Origin: Phycisphaerae bacterium | GTDB taxonomy: Bacteria; Planctomycetota; Phycisphaerae; SM23-33 | Direction: 5' to 3' | Assembly: GCA_011050235.1 (NCBI GenBank) | Contig: DRGC01000006.1 | Span: 1 to 64,000, forward strand | DNA: 64,000 nt | Shown here: positions 16,305 through 60,493 of the stretch, piece after piece | Position numbering within the stretch: the stretch's first letter is position 1 | Layout: every line of letters begins with the position of its first letter | Program-made: the position numbers and the translations under genes | The notes under the pieces: model-generated | Told to the model about the DNA's origin: nothing | Database searches by the model: none | What the model saw: the letters and a program-made list of their open reading frames with translations, nothing else

Positions 16305-17204
16305 TCATCGGATGCCCCGGGCGGCGAGGCGGTTCAGTTGGTCGATCTGGCCGCGCAGATCGGCGGCGGCCTGCGTGTCGGCAAAGCGGGCCACGATATC
16401 CTCGGCGACCGTCGCCGCGTCGTGGTATCGTCGCCGTTCGATCAGGTCCCGAATCCGATCGCGAAGCTCCCGGACCTCTTCGATGCGGGCGTTTTCCTGT
16501 AGCGTGGCCAGCCGACCGGTCACCTCGGCCGCTTCGGCCGTGGCCGGGTGGACGTTCACCAACTCCTGGGCCGCCGCCAGGGCCGCTCGCCACTGGCGCC
16601 GCTGACATGACCGGTCGACCTGCTCGTAAAGGCGCTGCCGCTGCTGTCGCGCGAACGCTTCGGCCTCGCGATCCACGCGCTGCAGCAGCGGCTCCAGCTC
16701 GCCGGCGGCGGGGAACTCGGCCATCAAGTCCCGGGCCAGTTGCCGCGCATGGTCAAACGCCCCCATCGACATCAGCTCTTCCACGCGACTGCTCTGCTCT
16801 GTCAGGCCCCTTCCCGGCTCGGGCCGTTCGTCCGCCATCGCGGGCCCCGCCGCCTGGCTCGCCGGCTGCTCGGTCGCGACCACCTGCGAATCGCCAAGCG
16901 TTGATCCCGACATCTTGGCCTCACTGGATGCGCCCGATGGCGCCGGGGCGGGCTCGGCGGTGACGCGCGTCACGATCCACGCCACCGTCCACAACAGCGC
17001 GCCACTGGTCAGGCCCCACAGCGACGAAAGAATCGCCCCGCAGATTCGCAGCACCGAGTCGCCCTGCCCCATGCGGACGTGCAGCAAGACCGTCGCGCCC
17101 ACCAGCCCCGCCACGGACGTCACGATCGCCAGGGCCTTCAGCCAGGCGACCAGCACACCCGGCGGGAATAGAGGCGGTTTCGATTGTCGCGGCGATGGGT
17201 CCAT
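16305..17204 (-). CDS. Membrane-anchored tetratricopeptide-like protein
   Basis: 299 residues. Two membrane helices near 20-45 and 55-80 are followed by a Pro/Ala/Ser-rich linker and a long helical C-terminal half with TPR-like periodicity (for example [52 protein letters not shown]). It is probably an envelope scaffold with the helical domain in the cytoplasm or periplasm; the partner is unknown. The ATG at 17204 (MDPSPRQSK) was chosen because the longer reading frame upstream is unusual in composition and would run through the divergent promoter at 17345. Confidence 0.65.
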
Positions 17205-17344
17205 GGACGTCTTCGCTTTCACAGCGCTGGGTCCATTATGCCCACCTGCCGCCGCAACGGCAAGCGGCCGACACACGACAGTCGGCGGCCGACACACAGC
17301 AATCGGCGGGCGACCCCCCAAAACGGCCTCTCGCGCCCAAAACG

Positions 17345-17374
17345 TTGACGTTCTGCTGCCTCCAGGGCTATAAT
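17345..17374 (+). promoter_or_regulatory. Near-consensus sigma-70 promoter, apparently leaderless
   Basis: TTGACG and a perfect TATAAT are 18 bases apart. The predicted start, about seven bases after the -10 box, coincides with the GTG at 17381. No ribosome site fits between the two. Confidence 0.72.
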
Positions 17375-17380
17375 ACAAGT

Positions 17381-18166
17381 GTGAATAACCATCATAGCAA
17401 GCCATCGACATCGTGCCCCGGGCATGGGCATCAAGGCTTTACGCTCATCGAGCTGCTGGTCGTAATCGGCATTATCACCACGCTGATGAGCATTCTGATA
17501 CCGGCGGTCAACCAGGCCCGCCTGGTCGCCATGCGCCAGACGTGCCGCGGGCATCTGCACACAATCATCCAAGCCTGCCACTACTATGCTCAAAACAAGC
17601 AGGTCCATCGCAGCGGCAGCGCTCTGGGCGCCCTTCCCAGCGCCGCTGTTACGTCCACCAACTGGGCGGATATCGAGACCGGCAATCCTGCGAGCCTTTG
17701 GCTGCTGATCCAACATGGCTTTGCCGCTCGCGAACTGTTCCTATGTCCCGAGGCCGAAGCGCGGGCGCGAGCCGACAGTCTCGACGACGACGCGACCAGC
17801 TTCACCTACAGCAACAACATCAGCACCTTGTCCTACAGCTACATCTCCATGGTCGGCGAGTTTGGCCAGAAGACATCCTATTTTGAGGAAATCACCACCT
17901 CCCTGGTGATCGTTGCTGACGACAACCCGCGGTTCGATTTCGACGGCGCCATGTTGTCCCCCTTTCCCACAGACGACGCCATCTCACCCAATTCCCTCAA
18001 CCACAATGAGCAAGGCCAAAACGCCGCCCGTCTCGACGGGTCCGCCACGTGGCTGGACGAGGCCAACGCCGCCGGCGAGGGGGATGACATCTATGCCGCC
18101 GACAGGGCCGCCGATGATTCAAAGAAAGAACGCAGCGACATCGATGATGCATTTTGTGTGCCGTAA
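17381..18166 (+). CDS. Prepilin-type N-terminal domain protein, GTG start
   Basis: 261 residues. A short His-containing leader is followed by [17 protein letters not shown], a textbook prepilin peptidase site with Glu at +5 and a membrane helix. The extracytoplasmic part has [12 protein letters not shown] and a late DGSATWLDE strand, as in the planctomycete pilin-like families. The GTG at 17381 is in frame and directly follows the strong promoter; the reading frame is also open upstream, but that part lies before the promoter and is low complexity. Its role is probably an envelope pseudopilin-like protein of unknown function. Confidence 0.78.
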
Positions 18167-18280
18167 ACCAAAGCACCCGCCTCAAGCGCATCCATAACCT
18201 ATTTTCCGATAATCCTTTCCGTACATACTTCTGTCTTATTGCCAAGAGGAAAAAAAATCAGGTGTTTACCCTATTAGCTC

Positions 18281-18309
18281 TTGATGCATTCGGTCTAAGG
18301 CAATATAAT
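18281..18309 (+). promoter_or_regulatory. Upstream promoter P1 of the candidate small RNA
   Basis: TTGATG and a perfect TATAAT with a 17-base spacer, in an AT-richer island (18180-18360). It predicts a start near 18316. Confidence 0.62.
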
Positions 18310-18330
18310 CATTTTGTCGAGCTTGATACC

Positions 18331-18359
18331 TTGACGTAACGGGACCAGATTGGTATACA
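18331..18359 (+). promoter_or_regulatory. Downstream promoter P2 of the candidate small RNA
   Basis: TTGACG and TATACA with a 17-base spacer. It predicts a start near 18366, which is the first base of the first hairpin of the RNA. Together with P1 it makes a tandem promoter arrangement with no protein gene behind it. Confidence 0.72.
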
Positions 18360-18365
18360 ACCACC

Positions 18366-18472
18366 CCGATTGGAAAAAGATGTCCCTTTTTCGAATCGGT
18401 TCTCCCCCGACCGGTTCGATTGCTTGGCGGTGCCTGTCGTCCCCCCCCGCGGCAGGCCCGCCGTTTTTTTTT
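18366..18472 (+). ncRNA. Candidate orphan small RNA (~107 nt) with alternative hairpins
   Basis: The unit lies between two convergent genes. Hairpin A: 18366-18379 pairs with 18386-18399 (14 positions, one mismatch, 6-base loop). Hairpin B: 18392-18401 pairs with 18409-18418 (10 positions including two G-U pairs, 7-base loop). The two share 18392-18399 and so cannot form together. A GC-rich terminator stem with nine U residues closes the unit at 18472. No co-directional gene follows and the reading frame through it does not look coding. It matches no RNA family that I recognise (not 6S, tmRNA, RNase P or SRP by layout). The function is unknown; a trans-acting or regulatory RNA is an inference. 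Confidence 0.68.
18425..18472 (+). terminator. Intrinsic terminator of the small RNA
   Basis: Bases 18426-18439 pair with 18450-18462 (13 pairs, one bulged T at 18431), followed by nine T residues at 18464-18472. The orientation is plus; on the minus strand no U tract would follow, so it does not serve the convergent gene at 18573. Confidence 0.85.
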
Positions 18473-18572
18473 GTCCCCCTTCGCCGGCGCACACAAGATA
18501 GCGCAAACATACTCCGGCTTGGGCGTTGGTGATCGAACGTCTCCCCTCCCCCTGCCCTTACACCTGCGACGG

Positions 18573-19319
18573 TCAACTGCTGGCGATGGCCGTCACGATC
18601 GGCTTGACAACCTGCGGAACAACAACTCGCGACGCGAGATCCTCACCGAAGTCGCACAGATCCACCAGCGTCCCGTCGAGGTCCATCAATTTTCCCGCCT
18701 GCGGGCAGCGGCGCATCGTGAAGTAGATGCTGATCGGATCGTCAGAGAACTGGCCGGTGCGGACCTGATAGTCGTTGGAATGCGTTTCGACCGCCAGGCG
18801 GGCCTGGAGCAAACAGTCATCATCGAGGGCGAATACGATCGACGGCTCGCACTGGATGCACTTGCCGAACCCCTCAGTCGCCACGGCGGCCAGGGGCGAT
18901 GCCCCCAGCAACGCATCGGTCACGATCGCGTCGCGATTGCCCAAGAAGTCCAGATGAAATCCGAAGGTGATGTCCAGGCATTCCACGTCCATCCTGCCGA
19001 CGCCCAGGTAGTAGATGCTCCGCTCGAGCAGCCAACGGTGAAAGCCGTACCCCTGGGCCAGGTCCGGCGGGTTGAACCACCCGGCCGTCAGACGGTTGGG
19101 GTGAAGCTCCAGCCACTGGTAGCTGCCGGCCTCGCGGTCGCCTTCGAGGACGTACTCTTGCCCGTCGCGCTGATAGAGGCTCGTCATGTCGGTGAAATGC
19201 TTTTGGACCGTCTCGCAGAACTGCAGGACGGTCTCCCGATTGCTCGGCAGCGACAGCGTCGTTTGCAGATTCAGGTTCAGGAAGAAATCGTCGGACACAT
19301 TGCTGAACGGATGGGACAT
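18573..19319 (-). CDS. Conserved-looking soluble protein, unknown function
   Basis: 248 residues, soluble, acidic, with no signal peptide or membrane helix. The N-terminus reads MSHPFSNVSDDFFLNLNLQT; a segment GYGFHRWLLERSIYYLGVGRMDVECLDI and a Cys pair (GKCIQCEPS) stand out. Codon use and length argue for a real gene, but I recognise no family. It lies 58 bases downstream of cysE on the same strand and may be co-transcribed with it. It converges on the small-RNA unit. Confidence 0.72.
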   Translation of the reverse strand: MSHPFSNVSDDFFLNLNLQTTLSLPSNRETVLQFCETVQKHFTDMTSLYQRDGQEYVLEGDREAGSYQWLELHPNRLTAGWFNPPDLAQGYGFHRWLLERSIYYLGVGRMDVECLDITFGFHLDFLGNRDAIVTDALLGASPLAAVATEGFGKCIQCEPSIVFALDDDCLLQARLAVETHSNDYQVRTGQFSDDPISIYFTMRRCPQAGKLMDLDGTLVDLCDFGEDLASRVVVPQVVKPIVTAIASS

Positions 19320-19377: not shown

Positions 19378-20343
19378 TTACGTCTCGTTCTCGGGGTCTA
19401 TCTGCAACGACTGCGTGTTGGGCATCACGGTCGAGCCCGGGGCGACGCTGTTGTTGACGAACGTGTTGCTGCCGACGGTGGCGCCTTCGCCGATCTCGAT
19501 CTTCTTGCCGAAGATCGTCGCGTTGCCGCCGATGACGGCCCCTTTGCGGACCACGGTCCGACCGCCCAGGATCGTGGCATTGGCGTAGATCGTCACGCCA
19601 TCTTCGATCGTCGGATGCCGCTGCAGGCCCTTCTTGACGCGGCCCAGCTCGTCCTTGGGGAAACTGCGGGCGCCGAGCGTCACGCCCTGATAGAGCTTCA
19701 CATTGTCGCCGATCACGGTCGTCTCGCCGATCACCACGCCCGTGCCGTGATCGATGAAGAAGCTCTTGCCAATCCGCGCGCCCGGGTGGATGTCGGTCCC
19801 CGTGACGCTGTGGGCATGCTCAGTCATGATGCGGGGCATCAACGGCACCTCCAGCAACAGCAGCCGGTGGGCGATTCGATAGACCGTGACCGCGTAGTAG
19901 CCGGGGTAAGAGTAAACGATTTCGGCGATGCTCTTGGCCGCCGGATCGCCGTCATAGGCCGCCTGCGCATCCAGCGCCAGCAGGTCCCGCAGGTCTGGGA
20001 TCAACACCAGGAACTCCCGGGCCAGCTTTTCCGCCCGCTGGCGGCAGGGGCCGGCGGCATCCGGCTCGCCGTAGCAGAGGCAATGATAGATCTGCTCGCC
20101 CAGTTCCTGCACCAGCAGAGCGACCATGTTGCCCACGTGGAACTTGATATTCTCCTGGCTCAGGAGCTTGTGGCCGAAGAACCCGGGGAACAGCAGGCGG
20201 CGAATCTCCGCGACGAGCTCCACGATCCGCTGGCGCGACGGCAGAAAATCCTCGCCGATGCGCTGCATGCGATCGTGTTGGGCATAGCTGGTCAGGATTT
20301 CGTGAGTGATCGAATCCAGTTCTGTCTTGTAGTCGTCGCTCAT
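19378..20343 (-). CDS. cysE: Serine O-acetyltransferase (EpsC/CysE type)
   Basis: 321 residues. An N-terminal helical domain (about 1-180) precedes a left-handed beta helix of hexapeptide repeats. GTDIHPGARIG and FFIDHGTGVVIGETTVIGDNV carry the catalytic His/Asp region, and LYQGVTLGARSF is diagnostic for the family. It acetylates L-serine with acetyl-CoA, the first step of cysteine synthesis. The ATG at 20343 (MSDDYKTEL) fits the family N-terminus; the reading frame upstream is not conserved-looking. The protein is longer than the E. coli enzyme, as in the EpsC-like branch. Confidence 0.93.
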   Translation of the reverse strand: MSDDYKTELDSITHEILTSYAQHDRMQRIGEDFLPSRQRIVELVAEIRRLLFPGFFGHKLLSQENIKFHVGNMVALLVQELGEQIYHCLCYGEPDAAGPCRQRAEKLAREFLVLIPDLRDLLALDAQAAYDGDPAAKSIAEIVYSYPGYYAVTVYRIAHRLLLLEVPLMPRIMTEHAHSVTGTDIHPGARIGKSFFIDHGTGVVIGETTVIGDNVKLYQGVTLGARSFPKDELGRVKKGLQRHPTIEDGVTIYANATILGGRTVVRKGAVIGGNATIFGKKIEIGEGATVGSNTFVNNSVAPGSTVMPNTQSLQIDPENET

Positions 20344-20457
20344 TACGCTGTCCTTGTTGGACGCAGCCGCGCGTATTGTAGCACCCCTGCCGCCGTTGTC
20401 ACCCCGCAACGTTGACGCCGCCGAGGCGGCGACTCCGGCATTCGAGGCGATCGGCCT

Positions 20458-45262: not shown

Positions 45263-47145
45263 TGACATCGTTGCCCCCCCGGCCGGCGTTTGCCGCAGCC
45301 TTGATCCTGATCGTCACAGCCGGCGCCTTCGCCGGCAGCGGCCCCCCCTGGCTTATCACCGGCGGCCCCGCCGCCGCCAGCCCCGCCGGTGGCGGCGGGC
45401 TGCACATCGCCGGCAACAAGCAGACGGGGTTCAACTGGACGCGCAAGGACGGCGGGGGCTTCCGATGGGACATCACCAACGTCGGCATGGTGTTGGACGG
45501 CACGAGCGACCTCTACGACGGGGCCATGCGCCTGTCGATCGGACCCAAGAGCTTCACCAACAGCCGCCCGGCCCGACTCAACGCCGCCGGCAACGAGATC
45601 GAGATCGGCCCCTGGACCAACGGGCCCCTGCGGGTCTGGCGGCGGATTTACGTCGACCCCGACACCGGCTATTGTCGGTGGATCGATATCTTCGAGAACC
45701 AAAGCGACACACCCCTCGAACTGCCCGTCCGCTACAATGTCGACTTCGGCGGCACGCTCAAGCACGTGATCTCCTCCTCCGACAAGCCGCTCAACAGCGG
45801 CGACGCCTGGGCCCTGGTCACCCAGTGCGAGCCCACCGACCGCCGCATGGCCGTCGCACACATTCTGGCCTCGCCGGAATCGACGATCAAACCAACGCTG
45901 ACCTCCGGCGGGCGAAAGAAGGACCTCATCACATACACCTTCGCCCTGAAGCTCCAGCCGCGGCAGACGTCGGCCTTGTGCATCGTCCACGTCCAGCGCC
46001 GCGCCCTCGCCGACGCCCGCGCCATTATCGACGGGTATGACCTCCGCCAGGAACTGGACAAGATCCCGCCCAAACTCGCCGCCATCATCGTTAACCTAAG
46101 CTCCAGCGGCGCGACGCTGGCAGGGATCGGCCTGCCCCGCAACCGGCAACACGACCTGGTCGTCCTGCCGGACAAGACCAGGTTGAAAGGGACGATCCGC
46201 AACGAACTCTTCCAGATCGAAACGACCTACGGCACGTTCGACCTGCCGGCCGACCGCGTGATCGGCTTCGGCATCCCCGACCCCAACGACCCGCACGTCC
46301 ACCTCGTCCTGACCGACGGGCAAATCCTGGGCGGACGCCTGCTCAGCGGGCCGGTGAATCTGGAACAGGAAAACGGCGCGACACGGTCGATCGCGCTCGA
46401 CCGTTTGGCGTCCGCCGCGTTCGCGATCTCACCGGAAAAGCCCGTTCGGACCCCACACACCGACCCCATCGTCGAACTGCGCGGCGGGCAGCGGCTCACC
46501 TACGGATCGCAGGCCCCCTCGCTTCGGTTCCACAGCGAATACGGCCCGGTCGACTTGCCTGTGGCGGCGCTGACATCGCTGGAGTTTCACACCCCCGACG
46601 GCGGGCTCCATCGGGCCATCCTGGCCAATGGGACCATCCTGTCGGGGCTGCTTGCCGACGATGAGTTGACGCTGCAATTGAAGCTGGGGCGCCAGTTGGT
46701 CCTGCCTGTGGCCATGGCGAAGCGACTTCTGTTTCCGGTCAAGCCCGCCGCCGACCCGGCGCTGTGGCAGATCCATCTGCACAACGAGAACGTCCTGTTC
46801 GGCCGGGTCATGGACGAGCAGTGGACGGTGCAGACCCCCTCCGGGTCGGTTTCGGTGGCTCTCGCCGAGGTGGCCCGCCTGACCCGCCCGCAGGATCGAC
46901 CCACGGCCGCCCCGACGGTCACGCTGCAAAGCGGCAACGCCCTGACCGGCGAACTGACGGAGACGGTCCTTCACATCGAATTGGCCGACGGGCTCGTCGT
47001 GCCCGTCTTCCTCGGCCACGTTCGTCAGATTCTCGCCCCACGTACTCCCGCCCCTGCGCCCGCCCCCACAACGGCGCCGACGTCGGCGCCAGCCACTCGC
47101 CCAGCGACCCTCCCCCGACCAACAACATTGGATGTGTACCGCTAA
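45262..47145 (+). CDS. Secreted six-repeat beta protein, second of a pair
   Basis: 627 residues. It has a signal peptide (LIVTAGAFAGS) and the same N-terminal domain as its neighbour (PLRVWRRIYVDPDTGYCRWIDIFEN), then about six of the NGxxxxG repeats (VLPDKTRLKGTI; VLTDGQILGGRL; ILANGTILSGLL; LHNENVLFGRV; LQSGNALTGEL) and a short Pro/Thr-rich end instead of the HEAT-like tail. The start ATG overlaps the previous stop (TGATG), so the two are co-translated. The pair probably works together at the surface or in the periplasm; the function is unknown. Confidence 0.8.
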   Translation: MTSLPPRPAFAAALILIVTAGAFAGSGPPWLITGGPAAASPAGGGGLHIAGNKQTGFNWTRKDGGGFRWDITNVGMVLDGTSDLYDGAMRLSIGPKSFTNSRPARLNAAGNEIEIGPWTNGPLRVWRRIYVDPDTGYCRWIDIFENQSDTPLELPVRYNVDFGGTLKHVISSSDKPLNSGDAWALVTQCEPTDRRMAVAHILASPESTIKPTLTSGGRKKDLITYTFALKLQPRQTSALCIVHVQRRALADARAIIDGYDLRQELDKIPPKLAAIIVNLSSSGATLAGIGLPRNRQHDLVVLPDKTRLKGTIRNELFQIETTYGTFDLPADRVIGFGIPDPNDPHVHLVLTDGQILGGRLLSGPVNLEQENGATRSIALDRLASAAFAISPEKPVRTPHTDPIVELRGGQRLTYGSQAPSLRFHSEYGPVDLPVAALTSLEFHTPDGGLHRAILANGTILSGLLADDELTLQLKLGRQLVLPVAMAKRLLFPVKPAADPALWQIHLHNENVLFGRVMDEQWTVQTPSGSVSVALAEVARLTRPQDRPTAAPTVTLQSGNALTGELTETVLHIELADGLVVPVFLGHVRQILAPRTPAPAPAPTTAPTSAPATRPATLPRPTTLDVYR

Positions 47146-53274: not shown

Positions 53275-53915
53275 AGAGGCCAACGGCCTCAAATGTATCA
53301 GCCTGGGGCGCAGCCCCAGGATAAGACGGCCCCTTGTAGCAGCCCTGAAGGGGCGCAATGACTAATCCCACACGTATCTCTCATCGAAGTCGATCTCATG
53401 CCGCACCAGGAACGCCCGAAAGTCATCCTGAAAACTCACCTCTCGATGATGCTCTTCCTGCGACGCAATATAGGCCTTGGTGTCCTCTATCTTGGACTGA
53501 CTGACCGAAAACGCCCCGTACCCGCGCTGCCAGTAGAACTCACCTAAGGCCTCCCCCCTGCCCTTGATCCATTTGGATGATGTCTTCTTGATCTCTTCGA
53601 CCACCTCGGCCAGCGAATGCTTGCGCGACAGCACGAACAGGATGTGCACATGGTCAGCCACCGCGCCGATGACCAGCGACGGGCAATCCATGTCCCGCAG
53701 CGTTCCGCCAAGGTACGCTCTCAGTTCTTCACGTATCTCCGACGTGATCAACGGCCGCCGGTCTTTCGTCGAGAACGTCAGATGGACGACCATTTTCGAT
53801 AGCGATTGAGGCATCGCCGATCCCTTCATTTCGCCCCTACAGGGCTCACCGATTTGGAACGACCCGATTCCTGGGGCTTCGCCCCAGGCTGATACATCCC
53901 AGGCCTTTGGCCTGG
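53275..53915 (-). mobile_element. IS200/RAYT-like element 1 with palindromic ends
   Basis: 641 bases. The left end (53275-53360) has a GGCCAACGGCC stem, a CTGGGGCGCAGCCCCAG stem and CCCTGAAGGGG; the right end (53826-53915) has the matching GCCCCTACAGGGC, CTGGGGCTTCGCCCCAG and CCAGGCCTTTGGCCTGG. The arms are imperfect inverted repeats, as in REP-associated transposases. Homology with element 2 continues ~65 bases beyond the right end. A tract ATTGCGGATTTCGGATTGCG lies upstream at about 53190. Confidence 0.85.
53362..53814 (-). CDS. REP-associated tyrosine transposase (IS200 TnpA-like)
   Basis: 150 residues. DHVHILF holds the HUH metal motif, and AYIASQEEHH carries the presumed catalytic Tyr. 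The start MPQSLSKM is the usual family N-terminus, and AAGGGA lies upstream. It should nick and join single-stranded DNA at the palindromic ends. It is about ten substitutions away from the copy at 59940. It appears intact. Confidence 0.9.
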   Translation of the reverse strand: MPQSLSKMVVHLTFSTKDRRPLITSEIREELRAYLGGTLRDMDCPSLVIGAVADHVHILFVLSRKHSLAEVVEEIKKTSSKWIKGRGEALGEFYWQRGYGAFSVSQSKIEDTKAYIASQEEHHREVSFQDDFRAFLVRHEIDFDERYVWD

Positions 53916-55694: not shown

Positions 55695-55813
55695 ACCCGG
55701 AGCTCCGTAGGGGCGACAGAGGGATTTGACGCCACCTGTCGCCCCGCCGGGGCTCTGCCCTCATTCCGGGGGCTGACGCCCCCGGCCAACATCTATCGGC
55801 CCTGCGGGCCTCC
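55695..55813. repeat. Half-unit of the palindromic repeat family
   Basis: Contains a GTAGGGGCGAC...GTCGCCCC arm and a CCGGGGGCTGACGCCCCCGG hairpin. It follows the sulfatase gene. The 55677-56066 gap holds no gene that I can support. Confidence 0.65.
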
Positions 55814-59852: not shown

Positions 59853-60493
59853 AGAGGCCAACGGCCTCGAATGCATCAGCCTGGGGCGCAGCCCCAGGAT
59901 AAGGCCGCCCCTTGTAGCAGCCCTGAAGGGGCGCAATGACTAATCCCACACGTACCTCTCATCGAAGTCGACCTCATGCCGCACCAGGAACGCCCGAAAC
60001 TCATCCTGAAAGCTCATCCCTCGATGATGCTCTTCCTGCGACGCGATGTAGGCCTTCGTGTCGTCCATCTTGGACTGACTGACCGAAAACGCCCCGTACC
60101 CGCGCTGCCAGTAGAACTTACCCAAGGCCTCCCCCTTGCCCTTGATCCATTTGGACGATGTCTTCTTGATCTCTTCGACCACCTCGGCCAGCGAACGCTT
60201 GCGCGACAGCACGAACAGGATGTGCACATGGTCAGCCACCGCGCCGATGACCAGCGACGGGCAATCCATGTCCCGCAGCGTTCCGCCAAGGTAGGCTCTC
60301 AGTTCTTCACGTATTTCCGGCGTGATCAACGGCCGTCGATCCTTCGTGGAGAACGTCAGATGCACAACCATTTTCGATAGCGATTGAGGCATCGCCGATC
60401 CCTTCATTTCGCCCCTACAGGGCTCACCGATTTGGAACGACCCTATCCCTGGGGCTTCGCCCCAGGCTGATACATCCCAGGCCTTTGGCCTGG
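59853..60493 (-). mobile_element. IS200/RAYT-like element 2 with palindromic ends
   Basis: 641 bases, the same layout and orientation as element 1 at 53275-53915, with the same palindromic arms. Homology with element 1 continues past 60493 for ~65 bases. Beyond it, 60598-60625 holds an inverted copy of the tract found left of element 1. The 60494-60651 gap holds no gene. Confidence 0.85.
59940..60392 (-). CDS. REP-associated tyrosine transposase, copy 2
   Basis: 150 residues with HUH motif DHVHILF and presumed catalytic Tyr in AYIASQEEHH. It differs from copy 1 by about ten residues (for example LITPEIR versus LITSEIR, and SRKRSLAEV versus SRKHSLAEV). It is intact, so both copies could be active. 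Confidence 0.9.
   Translation of the reverse strand: MPQSLSKMVVHLTFSTKDRRPLITPEIREELRAYLGGTLRDMDCPSLVIGAVADHVHILFVLSRKRSLAEVVEEIKKTSSKWIKGKGEALGKFYWQRGYGAFSVSQSKMDDTKAYIASQEEHHRGMSFQDEFRAFLVRHEVDFDERYVWD

Follow-up and report, generated by a model that had tools for sequence, protein, structure and literature searches.

The mycobacterial small RNA (sRNA) B11/6C acts without known chaperones: the C-rich loop of its terminator pairs with guanine tracts at ribosome-binding sites (RBSs), and its targets are repressed (PMC12395582; PMC10470900). In ar14, identical anti-Shine-Dalgarno loops are carried on differing stems (PMC10746234). The open papers searched gave no account of regulatory RNAs from Phycisphaerae. 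The locus treated here lies in a 64,000-nt stretch (hereafter, the window) of contig DRGC01000006.1 from a Phycisphaerae bacterium (GenBank assembly GCA_011050235.1). The best same-strand matches in a permissive Rfam search were all RNAs with C-rich loops, i.e. 6C (RF01066; 29.2 bits), ar14 (RF02344; 22.8 bits), and CcsR1 (RF02791; 16.6 bits). The respective gathering scores (47, 58.8, and 65.3) were not reached, nor did the best homologue (36.2 bits against 6C) attain that of 6C. The scan was thus empty at gathering score, in keeping with an earlier note, made from the letters of the sequence alone, whose author recognized no known RNA family.

With 6C, the window RNA shares a layout of two hairpins, both having C-runs in their loops and the second serving as the terminator; the Rfam match fell on the same place and strand. 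In 6C, each loop has some six or more C residues; the loops in the window have 5 and 8. The two differ in distribution (6C occurs in Actinobacteria, homologues of the window RNA in Phycisphaerae/Planctomycetota), in their stem sequences, and in the longer, variable leader of the window RNA. The alphaproteobacterial ar14 and CcsR1 likewise present C-rich anti-Shine-Dalgarno motifs in hairpin loops, but the window RNA lacks their CCUCCUCCC motif; its cousins carry UCUCCCUCC and CCUCCUUUCC loops.

The elements listed in the earlier note (two sigma-70 promoters, overlapping stems, and a terminator with nine U residues) were all found in place when the sequence was checked, and the observed feature is confirmed as real. 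All lie on the + strand. Promoter P1 (TTGATG-N17-TATAAT; 18281..18309) has its -35 element at 18281-18286 and its -10 element at 18304-18309, with a predicted start at about 18316. An imperfect AGGT-N4-ACCT dyad (AGGTGTTTACCC; 18260..18271), a possible operator, is located directly 5' of P1. Promoter P2 (TTGACG-N17-TATACA; 18331..18359; -35 at 18331-18336, -10 at 18354-18359) is weak and unconserved. The 5' leader (18316..18381) varies in sequence among homologues, is not alignable, and falls outside the part conserved in BLASTN. Hairpin A (18366..18399; arms 18366-18379 and 18386-18399, 13 of 14 positions paired) is strong in the window's genome only. As had been claimed, it shares bases with hairpin B, termed hairpin 1 below: the arms 18386-18399 and 18391-18400 overlap. 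Conserved hairpin 1 (18391..18419; arms 18391-18400 and 18410-18419) holds a C5 tract (18404-18408) in its loop. Conserved hairpin 2 (18426..18463), with the 5+8 bp stem of the intrinsic terminator (18426-18462), holds a C8 tract (18441-18448) and is followed by a U9 tract (18464..18472). The two loops read UCUCCCCCG and UCCCCCCCC. The conserved core (18382..18470) scored 97.5 bits with the covariance model R1. Compared to shuffled sequences, a 109-nt form of the RNA folded with a z of -5.1 (0 of 200 shuffles were as good), and a 159-nt form with a z of -4.9.

The unit had been described as having flanking genes that converge on it and no protein gene behind it, and this was borne out. Upstream, a gene with an N-methylation (pseudopilin) motif (PF07963 at residues 79-101) spans 17195..18166 (+) as its longest open reading frame (ORF); its true start is probably nearer 17420. 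A near-perfect sigma-70 promoter (TTGACG-N18-TATAAT, 11 of 12 positions) is present just 5' of this gene at 17345-17374 (+). Downstream, an orphan gene for a 248-aa protein (18573..19319, -) has its stop at 18573, and a Pfam search of this protein returned no family. It is followed by a serine acetyltransferase-like (hexapeptide) gene (19378..20409, -; Hexapep 42.8 bits, SATase_N sub-threshold). Homologues of these neighbors accompany the RNA elsewhere: the orphan adjoins it in 14 loci, the acetyltransferase-like gene is near it in 12, and the pseudopilin-like gene lies 5' of it in 8. Such synteny with convergent neighbors excludes a leader, and the conservation of the neighbors indicates that the locus is inherited vertically as an independent unit. 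Elsewhere in the window, three matches above gathering score to the Acido-Lenti-1 RNA (RF01687) occur within 7 kb (53870-53914, 55766-55811, and 60448-60492, all +); two more are in locus L205, and the element is a repeated one.

In a BLASTN search of 60 relatives, most members of the window's family proved to carry a homologue (E-values down to 5e-26). The conserved segment (ca. 18384-18471) covers hairpin 1 and the terminator and leaves out hairpin A and the promoters. Model R1, built from an alignment of 19 sequences, matched 24 of the 35 genomes of the family and two of the three genomes of a sister family in the same order; several of the 11 family genomes without a match are incomplete. 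Among 298 genomes of the class, two weak matches were found in other families (L073 and L075), and 294 genomes of the phylum contained no match besides the window. The second of the weak matches (L075:1501-1593, genome G068) has loops rich in C, and an additional hairpin separates its two conserved ones; it is possibly a distant relative. Named contigs bearing the motif are metagenome-assembled genomes of Phycisphaerae/Planctomycetota; 13 further pattern matches in other phyla may be due to chance.

Covariation was assessed in an alignment of 30 sequences that was fitted to the model; the initial MAFFT alignment, with fewer sequences, agreed (8 pairs vs. 3.2). In the former, 96.4% of cells pair, and 20 of 25 base pairs change on both sides, compared to 6.3 in shuffles; cells with double changes numbered 75 (12.7 when shuffled). 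The covariation score was 0.402, and sliding the partners abolished this signal (≤0.133). Double changes affected 10 of 11 pairs in hairpin 1 and 10 of 14 in hairpin 2, and RNAalifold recovered both conserved stems independently. The compensatory changes that the earlier note had called for were accordingly seen in hairpin B and the terminator; hairpin A failed this check. Whereas the stems vary, C positions in the loops are invariant or nearly so. These C-runs, which had gone unmentioned in the earlier note, are the most conserved part of the RNA (5 C residues in loop 1 of the window and 5-7 in homologues; 8 in loop 2).

P1 matches the sigma-70 consensus at 10 of 12 positions, a quality found at 9 sites in 20 kb vs. 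3.4 expected. Of 23 homologues, 13 have an exact TATAAT 50-95 nt 5' of the core, where 0.5 would be expected. The consensus among homologues is CTTG-N~19-TATAAT, and their -35 core is usually CTTG; P1 was not recognized in a few (L051, L053, and L071). P2 is the weaker promoter (shuffle p = 0.04), and its -10 element does not end in T. A comparable site was present in only one homologue (L013), and P2 was therefore rejected as a conserved promoter. A dyad of the form AGGT-N4/5-ACC[C/T] occurs in the scanned interval 5' of the -35 element with a shuffle p of ≤0.02 in 8 of 20 homologous promoters, and near-matches are found in two more. Its presence at about half of the loci suggests a regulator. 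A search of the window's genome for an operator regulon gave only two further AGGTGWWTACCY sites and no clear regulon.

The window RNA has company in its own genome, where no fewer than four other RNAs with two C-loop hairpins were located (contigs C26, C51, C91, and C97). Genomes G004 and G019 contain short siblings in which the promoter immediately precedes hairpin 1. When these were aligned together with the main type (A4), the second hairpin was misplaced, and the siblings were therefore given a model of their own. This model, R2, was built from three short sibling copies. It found the window RNA and, in the same genome, further RNAs of this two-hairpin, C-loop layout at C51:131690, C26:6402, and C91:17626. 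It also found tandem pairs in G018 and, in G009, a tandem array of four. Many R2 matches are weak; they depend on short models, and simple terminators whose loops are rich in C may be among them. The loops of cousins found by R2 include UCUCCCUCC and CCUCCUUUCC, and the latter reads like the 3' end of 16S rRNA. In locus L167 (G009:C140:5717-6422), four two-hairpin RNAs stand in tandem, ca. 200 bp apart; three are near-identical, with UUUUCCUCCUUUCC and GGUCUCCCUCCRCC loops that resemble the 3' end of 16S rRNA. A pattern of such loops before a U-run matched in 31 of 35 family genomes, compared to a single control match in all. The pattern revealed a second sRNA type, which it matched across most of the family. 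In this type, one of two identical GGUCUCCCUCCRCC loops is in an inner hairpin and the other in the terminator hairpin, and the hairpin with the first is enclosed by an outer GTCCGCTGCACCC...GGGTTGCGGC helix. The copy in the window's genome is at L214:1002-1104 (-), equivalent to G000:C97:59501-59603, with homologues in L185-L213. Its stems covary (double changes in 11 of 29 pairs), and no Rfam family was matched at threshold.

The earlier note had called the unit an orphan small RNA and likened its layout to that of a regulatory RNA, and this reading is upheld: the unit has its own conserved promoter and terminator, no gene downstream, and no Rfam family at gathering score. At the sequence level, the conserved promoter, the intrinsic terminator, and the convergent neighbors make it a predicted independent transcription unit, as a base-pairing, trans-acting sRNA would be. 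The C-tracts are open in the hairpin loops, one of these hairpins is the terminator, several copies exist, and no Hfq was detected; on these grounds, the RNA resembles B11/6C and also ar14. The Hfq search found no gene in any of the 35 family genomes, with the positive control found in 5 of 14 reference genomes. By analogy, the window RNA likely acts in trans, as an sRNA that pairs with G-rich RBSs through its exposed C-loops. Transcription from P1, possibly controlled by a regulator on the AGGT-N4-ACCT dyad, would give an RNA of about 155 nt. By pairing with G-rich Shine-Dalgarno regions, its exposed loops, UCUCCCCCG and UCCCCCCCCG, would keep ribosomes from binding and leave the mRNA open to degradation, with no need for Hfq. 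Together with other sRNAs of this lineage that have C-loops or anti-Shine-Dalgarno loops, the RNA would form a set. As a signature of targets, G7-N-ATG was rejected: the summed excess of G7 before ATG over control was equal in genomes with the RNA (718/363) and without it (221/107), and a comparison of the window's genome with G011 gave no conserved target, the one pair of matches lying at differing positions inside a histidine kinase gene. The G7-ATG site at 45266 in the window was also dismissed, as its ORF looks like a shadow frame.

The earlier note raised a riboswitch-like layout. A riboswitch-like or start-site-dependent switch, in which transcripts from P1 and P2 would adopt A or B and thereby differ in activity, has some basis in the window. 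There, the stem of hairpin A is stronger than shuffles (z of -2.9 as a duplex and -4.4 as a fold), and the predicted fold is 96% A in the P1 transcript and close to even in the P2 transcript (B ca. 62%). A competition between A and B is thus energetically plausible in the model. However, hairpin A did not recur in 22 homologues (hairpin-1 5' arm with upstream sequence: mean z of +0.08, s.e. 0.19, vs. shuffled upstream sequence), which ruled it out as a conserved alternative, and P2 was matched in a single one. Whichever conformer forms, it leaves the terminator and the two C-tracts exposed: each C position is at least 77% unpaired in both transcripts, and the second tract is unpaired with a probability of about 1 in either conformer. 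A riboswitch or cis-acting leader would have the controlled gene 3' on the same strand; here, the downstream gene is convergent and the alternative fold unconserved. The switch reading did not survive this comparison, and we regard it as very improbable. The observation is therefore true for the window's genome, yet is not the function kept by selection; hairpin A would be either a chance local feature or an adjustment of the 5' part peculiar to the species.

The invariance of the C-tracts, and the repetition of identical C-loops at several loci as in titrating RNAs, would also suit an RNA that binds a C-specific RNA-binding protein or titrates G-rich sRNAs and does not pair with mRNA. No partner was identified, and the loop variants CCCCCCCC, UCUCCCUCC, and CCUCCUUUCC are all complementary to Shine-Dalgarno-like G-rich sequence and do not form one fixed protein motif; this alternative is unlikely. 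The location between convergent genes and the intrinsic terminator could be taken to mean that the locus is a mere terminator and conserved DNA element for those genes, with no separate RNA. Such an element would not account for a conserved promoter of its own, a U-run on the + strand only, independent covariation in hairpin 1, and copies in other gene contexts, and it is given only a slight chance. Short ORFs overlap the unit (e.g. 18350-18532) and could suggest a small, peptide-coding mRNA, but the overlap is mechanical; the leader is conserved in neither sequence nor length, and changes in the core track base pairing, not codons. We consider a peptide the least credible of these options, with a probability close to negligible.

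The pairing of exposed C-loops with G-rich RBSs is the probable reading that we retain. The window RNA is a real, conserved sRNA family, not found catalogued in Rfam 15 or in the open papers searched; its functional kind is known, and it is new as a family. A wider reading is an even call in our estimation: the whole lineage would lack Hfq and have around five or more sRNAs of the same plan per genome (two covarying hairpins and C-tract or anti-Shine-Dalgarno loops, some in tandem), and these would serve a global translational control whose origin is independent of, or extremely far from, actinobacterial 6C and alphaproteobacterial ar14/CcsR. With the covariance models and the copies given here, the family can be tested directly. 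If the proposed mechanism is true, C-loop sRNAs that target RBSs would be a recurrent device, present in three phyla or more, and this lineage, with no detectable Hfq, would supply naturally occurring variants of a single loop plan.
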